Made by a program: the position numbers and the translations under genes. This document shows, piece by piece, positions 2,936 to 34,118 of a stretch of 44,931 nucleotides of DNA. Within the stretch, counting starts at the first letter, position 1, and each line of letters starts with the position of its first letter. Source of the stretch: Deltaproteobacteria bacterium (lineage in GTDB: Bacteria; Myxococcota; Myxococcia; Myxococcales; 40CM-4-68-19); assembly GCA_005879805.1 (NCBI GenBank), contig VBKL01000101.1:1-44931 (forward strand), in the 5' to 3' direction. The notes beneath the pieces are model-generated. The model made no database searches. It had not been told where the DNA came from and saw only the letters and a list, made by a program, of their open reading frames with translations.

Positions 2936-2945
2936 CGCAGGTCCG

Positions 2946-4208
2946 TCAGCGCTGAATCTTGCGCGCGCGCGCGACGGTCAATTTGTCCTCGTCGGAAAGC
3001 TCGTCCATCCCGAGAATGGCGATGATGTCCTGCAGCTCCTTGTAGCGCTGCAGGATCGACTGTACCCGGCGCGCGACCCGGTAGTGCTTCTCGCCGACGA
3101 CGCCGGGATCGAGGATGCGGCTCGTCGAGTCGAGCGGGTCGACCGCCGGATAGATGCCGATCTCGGTGAGTCCGCGCGAAAGCACGGTGGTCGCGTCGAG
3201 ATGCGCGAAGGTCGTCGCGGGCGCGGGATCGGTCAGATCGTCGGCAGGCACGTAGATCGCCTGGACGGAGGTGATGGCGCCCTTCTTCGTCGAGGTGATG
3301 CGCTCCTGCAATTCGCCCATGTCGGTCGACAAGGTGGGCTGGTAACCGACGGCGCTCGGGATGCGGCCGAGAAGCGCGGAGACTTCCGAGCCCGCCTGCG
3401 TGAAGCGGAAGATGTTGTCGATGAAGAGAAGCATGTCGCGCCCCTCTTCGTCGCGGAAGTACTCGGCCATCGTCAGCGCCGACAACCCTACCCGGGCGCG
3501 GGCGCCGGGCGGCTCGTTCATCTGGCCGTAGACGAGCACGCACTGGCTCTTCTCCGGCTCCTTCAAGTTGACGATGTTGGACTCGATGAACTCGGCGTAC
3601 AGGTCGTTCCCTTCGCGGGTCCGCTCGCCCACGCCGGCGAACACCGAGAAGCCGCCGCGCGCCTTGGCGACGTTGTTGATCAGCTCCTGGAGGAGCACCG
3701 TCTTGCCCACGCCCGCGCCGCCGAAGAGGCCGATCTTCCCGCCGCGCAGGTAGGGCGCGAGCAGGTCGATGACCTTGATCCCCGTCTCGAACGCCTGCAC
3801 CCGGGTGTCCTGTTCGACGAACGAAGGAGGCGGCCGGTGGATGGGCATCCGCCGCTTGGCGTTCACCGGGCCCCTCTCGTCGACCGGATTCCCGATGACG
3901 TTGAGGATGCGCCCCAGGGTCTCCTTGCCGACCGGCACCGAGATCGGCGCGCCGGTGTTCTTCACCGGCTGCCCGCGCACGAGACCGTCCGTCGAATCCA
4001 TCGCGATGCACCGGGCGGTGTTCTCGCCGAGATGCTGCGCCACCTCGATGGTGAGGTTCTCGGCCTCTGCCGAAATGCTGGGGTTGGAGACCGTGAGGGC
4101 CATGTAGATCTCAGGCAAGGAGCCCGGGGGAAACTCCACGTCCACGACCGGGCCGATCACCTGGGTGACCTTGCCCGTCTTCTGCATCTCTGTCATCGCG
4201 ACGGCCAT
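2946..4208 (-). CDS. atpD: F0F1 ATP synthase subunit beta, C-terminally truncated
   Basis: Catalytic beta subunit of F1, which binds and hydrolyses or makes ATP. Visible are the N-terminal barrel, Walker A (GGAGVGKT, residues 163-170), the catalytic GERTREG segment, the Walker B region ending in FIDNIFRF, and a DELSEED-type loop (DELSDED, about residues 402-408). The protein then stops right after ARARKIQR at residue 420. Family members continue for about 60 more residues (starting FLSQPF), and none of these can be found in any frame before atpC, which starts 10 bases later. The start at 4208 has a GAGGGAG ribosome binding site. The truncation removes the end of the C-terminal helical domain. 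It is either a real deletion or, more likely, a sequence or assembly error. Confidence 0.95.
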   Translation of the reverse strand: MAVAMTEMQKTGKVTQVIGPVVDVEFPPGSLPEIYMALTVSNPSISAEAENLTIEVAQHLGENTARCIAMDSTDGLVRGQPVKNTGAPISVPVGKETLGRILNVIGNPVDERGPVNAKRRMPIHRPPPSFVEQDTRVQAFETGIKVIDLLAPYLRGGKIGLFGGAGVGKTVLLQELINNVAKARGGFSVFAGVGERTREGNDLYAEFIESNIVNLKEPEKSQCVLVYGQMNEPPGARARVGLSALTMAEYFRDEEGRDMLLFIDNIFRFTQAGSEVSALLGRIPSAVGYQPTLSTDMGELQERITSTKKGAITSVQAIYVPADDLTDPAPATTFAHLDATTVLSRGLTEIGIYPAVDPLDSTSRILDPGVVGEKHYRVARRVQSILQRYKELQDIIAILGMDELSDEDKLTVARARKIQR

Positions 4209-4227
4209 GCTGCTCCCTCTCGAATCG

Positions 4228-32275: not shown

Positions 32276-33340
32276 CTAACGCAAGAGCTGGAGCGCTGCC
32301 TCGTTGATCTGCACCTTCGACGACTTGTGCACCTGATCGAGGAGCTGGCGCTCCGCCTGGGCCTTCTTCTCCAAGAAAGCCTTGCGGATGACCTCCTTCT
32401 GCACCTCGTCGAGGCTCCGCTTCTTTGCCGGGCGCCGCCCGAGGAGCTTGAAGAGATGGTACCCGTAGCTCGACTGCATTACCCCCGAGACCTGCCCGGG
32501 CTTGAGCGAGAAGCAGGCTTCGTCGAATACCTTGGGCATGGTGCCGCGGGCGAACCAACCGAGATCTCCGCCCCTGCGCGCGTCGGGCGAGCGGCCGTGG
32601 GACTTCGCCAGGTCCTCGAAGGAGGCGCCCTTGCGGATCTGGTCGAGCAGGCTCTTTGCCTCCTCGGCGGTGGTCACCAGGATCTGCAGCGCGTGCGCTT
32701 GCTCGGGCGTGTCGAACTCGGAGCGGTGGGTCTCGAAGTAGGCGCGCGCCTCGGCCGCGGAAGGCCGCTCTCCTCGCGTCTGCTCCGCGACCCATTTCTC
32801 GGCGAGGAGGCGATCGCGAGTCTCGTCGGCCAGGCCGTCCGCGGTCTGTCCGTCGTTGGCGAGGCGCTCCGCGAGGGTCTGCCCGCTCGCGCGGGCGGTT
32901 TCCGCCAGCGCATCCATCGCCCGCTGCACCTCCGCGTCGCTCACCGTCATGCCCGCGAGCCTGGCGCGGCTGACGAGCAGGGCGCGATCGACCAGCCCGT
33001 CGAGCAGCGCGCGCCCGAGGCGCGGCACGTCCTTGGCGTCGATCTGGGGAGGTGTTTCGAGGCCGTCGACGACGGCGGTTCCGGCGCCCCGGCGCAGCCG
33101 ATCGATCTCGCGCTGCACCGCGGAGACCGGAATCGACGTCCCGTCGGCGACGGCAGCGACGGGCGCCGGTGCCTGCGGCGCCGCCTTGTTCCGGTTGCAC
33201 GCCGCGAAGGCGCAAAGGAGGAGCGGAAAGAGGGACGGGCGCAAGAAACGAACGAAGGCGGCGAACCGGGCATCGCCCGGCCCGCCGCCTGATGGAAAGC
33301 CTCTTCCGAAGTCCTGCGACGAACTTCGGAGCTCGGTCAC
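32276..33340 (-). CDS. PpiC-type peptidyl-prolyl isomerase, lipoprotein
   Basis: A 354-residue parvulin with an N-terminal signal and lipobox (LLLCAFAAC), so probably anchored to a membrane. It has a SurA-like N-terminal region (AVADGTSIPVSAVQREID) and a complete parvulin domain (AHALQILVTTAEEAK through GGDLGWFARGTMPKVFDEACFSLKPGQVSGVMQSSYGYHLFKLLGRR). The start is a GTG at 33340 that shares a base with the stop of the upstream parvulin frame (TAGTG), which supports coupling. It is the second of three tandem parvulin genes. Confidence 0.85.
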   Translation of the reverse strand: MTELRSSSQDFGRGFPSGGGPGDARFAAFVRFLRPSLFPLLLCAFAACNRNKAAPQAPAPVAAVADGTSIPVSAVQREIDRLRRGAGTAVVDGLETPPQIDAKDVPRLGRALLDGLVDRALLVSRARLAGMTVSDAEVQRAMDALAETARASGQTLAERLANDGQTADGLADETRDRLLAEKWVAEQTRGERPSAAEARAYFETHRSEFDTPEQAHALQILVTTAEEAKSLLDQIRKGASFEDLAKSHGRSPDARRGGDLGWFARGTMPKVFDEACFSLKPGQVSGVMQSSYGYHLFKLLGRRPAKKRSLDEVQKEVIRKAFLEKKAQAERQLLDQVHKSSKVQINEAALQLLR

Positions 33341-33401
33341 TACTTGCCGCCGATTTTCACGCTGGCGGGAGCGGCGCTGGGCATGCCGCGCGGAACGACG
33401 C

Positions 33402-34118
33402 TCATGCTCGGGGAAGCCGGCTCGCTGGGAACGACCTTGGCGAGCTCTCGAAAGCGGCGTTCGCCAGCTCGGCCGAGTATGACTTGGTGAGCTCGTCCTT
33501 GGAGACGAACCGGAGGTCGCCACCCATCGGGGCCGAGGTCGGGTCCTGGCTGTCCTTCTGGGCGACGGCCTGGAACGCGTTGACCTCGCCCTTCCGGGTC
33601 CGCTCGTTGATGTCCTTGAGCAGCGCCTCGGCCTTCTTCTTCGCCTGCGCCTTGTCCTTCGCGTCCTTGGCGGCGACGAGGATGTGGTAGACGCGCGCGC
33701 GCTCGGGTTTCACGAAGTCGTCGATGTGCGAGTCGTAGTAGCCCTTCAGCTCGCTGTCCGGGATGTCGTTGCCGGAAAGCTTTTCGTCGAGCTGCTTCTT
33801 GATCAGCTCCTGGATCATCGCGCGCTTGACCTGCTCGCGGACGGCGGGCGACTTGTCGAGGCCCTGCCGCTCGGCTTCCTGGGCGAGCAGCTCGTTGCGG
33901 ATGAGGCTCTCGAGGAACTCCTTCTTGCGCTCGATCGTGTTGTAGCGGGCGCGCAGGAAGGGGCTCGTCTCGTCGAGGCGCTTCTTGAACTCGTCGGCCG
34001 TGATGGAATCATTGCCGACCTTGGCGATGACGGGGCCGTGCTTGCCGTCGCGCTTGCATCCGGCGATGGAGGCAACGGCAAAGGCGGCGAGGAAAAGGGC
34101 GGAAAGCTTGATCTTCAT
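33402..34118 (-). CDS. PpiC-type peptidyl-prolyl isomerase lipoprotein, disrupted at the 3' end
   Basis: A parvulin with a lipoprotein signal (LAAFAVASIAGC) and SurA-like N-terminal helices. The parvulin domain begins normally (ARVYHILVAAKDAKDKA, GGDLRFVSKDELTKSYSAELANAAFE). It then breaks near 33443-33449 and ends after 15 unrelated residues. In another frame the sequence resumes as ELAKVVPSEPASPSMSVV and so on, ending GGK with a TAG that overlaps the next gene's GTG (33342-33338). The second half of the parvulin domain, about 60-70 residues, is missing and the frame is shifted. The tail that resumes is probably the true C-terminus of this protein. Confidence 0.85.
   Translation of the reverse strand: MKIKLSALFLAAFAVASIAGCKRDGKHGPVIAKVGNDSITADEFKKRLDETSPFLRARYNTIERKKEFLESLIRNELLAQEAERQGLDKSPAVREQVKRAMIQELIKKQLDEKLSGNDIPDSELKGYYDSHIDDFVKPERARVYHILVAAKDAKDKAQAKKKAEALLKDINERTRKGEVNAFQAVAQKDSQDPTSAPMGGDLRFVSKDELTKSYSAELANAAFESSPRSFPASRLPRA

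Follow-up and report, generated by a model that had tools for sequence, protein, structure and literature searches.

Clean losses of about 200 bases in conserved genes of a draft bacterial genome are probably assembly errors

The window, the whole 44,931-nucleotide stretch of DNA that was analysed, is the entire contig C120 of a draft genome, G000 (5.02 Mb, 291 contigs, 87.9% complete). Four conserved genes within it (atpD, dnaN, gyrB and ppiC) each lack one contiguous block, a few bases from the places where the original prediction had put the missing parts. That prediction counted four losses; all four stand, and a fifth in the window, at 44065/44066, was missed. The features concerned are:

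2946..4208, minus strand: atpD (ATP synthase beta); 175-184 bases, the C-terminal part, missing with the junction at about 2947
16638..17561, plus strand: dnaN (DNA polymerase III beta clamp); 213 bases lost at 17385/17386, in frame
19331..21632, plus strand: gyrB; 188 bases lost at 19435/19436, frameshift
33337..34118, minus strand: SurA/PpiC-like foldase gene (ppiC); 214 bases lost at about 33446, frameshift
39661..44931: contig end, about 99.9% identical to contig C59 of G003, a genome of another genus
44065..44066, gene on the minus strand: fifth junction, in a TPR-repeat gene; exactly 203 bases lost, which G003 has

The comparison set consisted of stretches from one genome of the same genus (G001) and from five of the same family (G002, G003, G005, G007 and G008). 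Against these, 845,780 bases of G000 were set, and 144.8 kb of G000 were covered by relatives' proteins at E below 1e-20, 105.8 kb of it outside the window. The longest alignment with any single genome came to 120.9 kb for G005, 59.1 kb for G003, 40.7 kb for G007, 35.1 kb for G001 and 29.9 kb for G002. The main junction signature, in which no more than 30 bases are left and 80-450 are lost, recovers 8 of the 10 losses in G000; the gyrB and ppiC losses were sized by other methods, used on G000 alone. A second junction scan used limits of no more than 15 bases left and 60-3000 lost.

The atpD reading frame runs as far as KIQR and then meets a stop at 2946; the shortfall is 175 bases against G005, 178 against G007 and 184 against G001. 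The 213-base dnaN loss was seen against all six relatives aligned at that place and removes the first half of the third domain, where the Pfam match begins only at position 69 of 121. The 188 bases lost from gyrB were measured against G005 and G003 and lie near the GyrB N-terminus, which by the usual domain layout is the ATPase part. For the ppiC-like gene, the 214-base size was measured against G001 alone, and the lost part comprises the end of the PPIase domain and what follows. Counting the query genome's own locus in each case, the missing block is present in 28 of 29 atpD loci (the remaining one runs off its contig), 19 of 19 dnaN loci, 21 of 23 gyrB loci (both exceptions begin at a contig end) and 12 of 12 ppiC loci, the last at identities down to 33%. 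Insertions in the relatives were rejected as an alternative to losses in G000, since the extra bases are core protein parts across the relatives examined. The same gaps were looked for in sister genomes for these four genes and were not found, and the two frameshifts of the original prediction were borne out, as the losses in gyrB (188) and ppiC (214) both break the frame.

Several other features of this contig and its relatives were recorded. The end of the ATP synthase alpha gene (window 5122-5215) is a short in-frame tandem repeat, and the open frame has 538 codons against 514 in relatives. A gene of about 154 codons at 8695-9162 is inverted relative to its neighbours in comparison with G001, G003, G005 and G007, and beside it 0.5-2 kb of the relatives' DNA is missing. 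A 54-base repeat has two copies in the window (22351-22404 and 22463-22516), while C285, C225 and C50 carry copies about 50 bases long, which makes it a dispersed short repeat; the C285 copy is also present on C83, which resembles C158. Separately, six contigs of G000 carry copies, at 80-82%, of a conserved 199-base stretch of G003 (L169:11498-11696). The Rfam cspA model scores 48.3 bits at L169:11498-11696, below its 78-bit cut-off, and copies of this type may be cold-shock genes.

Clean losses of the same kind are not confined to the window. Another five turned up elsewhere in G000, spread over four further contigs:

C285, GH57 gene: 204 bases lost
C192, RNase E/G gene: 192 bases lost
C192, NtrC-type regulator gene: 217 bases lost
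C225, Obg gene: 210 bases lost
C47, MoxR-type ATPase gene: 182 bases lost

This brings the total to ten clean losses on five contigs, five of them in the window. Their sizes range from 175 to 217 bases, with a mean of 200 and a standard deviation of 14 when atpD is entered as 180. The uniform size claimed by the original prediction therefore holds in that all losses fall within 175-217 bases, although their lengths are not identical. Among the nine measurable coding losses, four keep the frame (213, 204, 192 and 210) and five break it (188, 214, 203, 217 and 182). Judged by eye, no further clean loss was seen in 20 kb of C192, where position 4788 is followed by about 750 poorly aligning bases.

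No clean loss of 175-220 bases was detected in the six relatives by either junction scan. There, the main signature yields other sizes (88-162, and 300), the second scan gives 67-162 plus one of 487, and the comparison of G008 with G000 showed no clean loss over 9.6 kb. One case in G007 (contig C31, L178:10865) is itself a private clean loss, of 162 bases, backed by four other genomes. G000 also has junctions of other sizes. A zero-gap junction at C285:26230/26231 (L248) is 1582 bases short, seen against G005 only, and a near-zero-gap junction at C225:14875 (L266) is 1382 bases short against G005 and 1426 against G003. An intergenic site at C158:120579 lost 167 bases, again against G005 only, on a contig for which only a short syntenic part was found in relatives. 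These 1582-, 1382/1426- and 167-base junctions fall outside the 175-217 range and may be real differences or other errors; together with the G007 loss they count against the assembly-error reading. In addition, C47 near 29,000 lacks 170 bases with 34 left, against G003 only, and single-relative differences of 84 (G007), 111 (G002) and 453 bases (G001) occur in the window.

The fifth junction differs from the others in that an intact partner exists in an independent assembly; for none of the other nine losses did the compared stretches offer a near-identical counterpart. From 39,661 onwards, the 203 bases aside, the window shows three differences from contig C59 of G003 in 4.4 kb and none in the last 866 bases, whereas window positions 38,820-39,418 are 69-80% alike to G003 per 100 bases, the usual level between these genomes. 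The near-identical stretch of C59 keeps the 203 bases without loss, and C59 continues as an ordinary relative on both sides of the matching stretch. The corresponding blocks measure 203 bases in G007 and 206 in G005, and a search for the 203-base block across G000 found it nowhere else, so that for this block a move to another place in the genome was rejected. G000 has its own diverged version of this region at the end of C225 (L266:14879-19390), 70-83% identical to C120, which stops opposite window position 39,706. Because that version sits on C225, we read the contig end as foreign DNA: C120 is probably a chimera that passes from the genome of G000 into that of G003's species, with the join probably between about 39,500 and 39,660. 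On this reading, the loss struck foreign DNA too. The 203-base loss thus appears to belong to the assembly rather than to one organism, and as evidence for assembly error it is nearly decisive.

A related error was found on C257 (L270), which carries an exact 199-base direct repeat at 2738-2936 and 3840-4038. The second copy displaces the middle of a glutamate/aspartate-binding protein gene, and its source lies 1.1 kb upstream. Set against structure 2ia4, the flanks of this gene are 66 residues too close, or about 198 bases, with a weak match for the left flank (-1.3 bits). That the filler is wrong and the gene nevertheless ends up close to 200 bases short suggests that it was the distance that had been set too small.

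Only at 44065/44066 is the exact lost sequence known, and at the other junctions the relatives' letters served as a stand-in. Shared microhomology, which the original prediction had raised, is absent: there are 0 bases at the exact 44065/44066 junction and 0-2 at the six others resolved. Nine junctions (C192:18140 was left out) contain no shared motif, and their information content is no higher than that of random positions, with a fraction of 0.42 of 60 random sets reaching it. Dropout through GC content or hairpins was rejected as well: the lost blocks show ordinary GC, and the exact 203-base block folds no better than its shuffled versions (z 0.97), of which 168 of 200 were equally or more stable. 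Cross-species conservation as a trigger was unsupported in four cases: between G005 and G003 the likeness of the lost blocks is 0.64-0.80 and that of the flanks 0.69-0.88, so that the blocks are not more alike.

Collectively, we consider it likely, with a probability of about 0.85, that the four losses in atpD, dnaN, gyrB and ppiC are assembly errors, produced when gaps that read pairs bridged were closed some 200 bases short. The original prediction had favoured wrongly closed gaps in a short-read assembly, and this is upheld by losses that are private to G000 among the genomes compared, spread over five contigs and blind to frame, as well as by the intact stretch at 44065 in a second assembly at about 99.9% identity. 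We infer the exact software step as follows. Read pairs would have spanned local gaps in coverage, and the contig ends on either side would then have been set directly against each other, with no N run between them and too close by nearly the same amount each time. Fusing mates end to end would give a loss equal to the inner mate distance, which could lie near 200; alternatively, a gap estimate off by about two read lengths could supply the same figure. The narrow spread of sizes makes random gap lengths an unlikely source, while mate fusion or a two-read-length error would fit. The genes are predicted to be intact in the cell itself.

Four other explanations, along with a community-wide variant, were weighed against this one. 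The first, which we regard as unlikely, is that N runs in scaffolds were stripped later, leaving the ends to abut whatever the true gap. The clean junctions agree with this, as does the finding that neither the window nor any G000 stretch checked (C20 left out) contains an N, while G003 stretches have N runs. However, stripping should leave a broad range of gap lengths, and the ten clean losses span 175-217 bases.

It is highly improbable that a short false overlap joined two places, through repeat collapse or bubble popping. An error of this type could account for the chimeric switch near 39.5 kb and for the wrong 199-base filler on C257, but it leaves tens of shared bases, and the resolved junctions have 0-2; at the exact 44065/44066 junction it is contradicted. 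The missing microhomology speaks against such a join and favours ends that were just placed side by side. Nor, in the four cases compared, is a lost block better conserved between G005 and G003 than the DNA flanking it, as noted above.

There is equally little to recommend the idea that blocks were looped out of molecules during laboratory handling ahead of sequencing, with whole-genome amplification as one possible step. Such a process would strike several species alike and ignore the frame, as observed, but it would have to prevail wherever a loss occurred and remove nearly the same length each time with no help from homology.

Real deletions in the organism through a uniform excision process are scarcely credible. 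Uniform sizes and clean junctions could be taken in their favour, yet AtpD, DnaN, GyrB and Obg have lost parts that are retained in relatives, the frame is broken by five of the nine measurable losses, the boundaries carry no motif, and near-identical DNA is intact in another assembly. We give virtually no credence to a community-wide process that removes loops of about 200 bases, one at a time, from the DNA of bacteria of whatever species, under which molecules of several related bacteria would carry clean gaps in essential genes.

With assembly error as the preferred reading, the evidence supports the view that the losses are no real biological feature and that their value is as a quality warning for a reference genome. 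In the genome collection used, G000 is the only genome representing its species. Ten clean losses occur per about 145 kb of comparable sequence, and five per about 106 kb outside the window. If this rate holds, the 5 Mb genome would contain a few hundred such sites, many of them in genes, an extrapolation from contigs that are not a random sample. These would include markers used for trees and for completeness, and it would be unsafe to conclude from G000 that genes are lost, enzymes truncated or domain layouts unusual. So narrow a range of loss sizes could act as a fingerprint for screening other draft genomes.

Local assembly errors and chimeric joins occur in metagenome-assembled genomes (Chen et al. 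2020, PMC7111523). In the part of that work consulted, the errors described do not include a near-constant loss of about 200 bases, as found here. A constant 200-base loss was likewise not met in a literature search covering titles and abstract openings. Among biological systems, programmed DNA elimination and site-specific excision remove blocks cleanly from inside genes. The G000 losses are similar to programmed DNA elimination in that blocks are cleanly gone from within genes, but they differ from it in having no boundary motif and in often breaking the frame, and they remove core protein regions that relatives keep.
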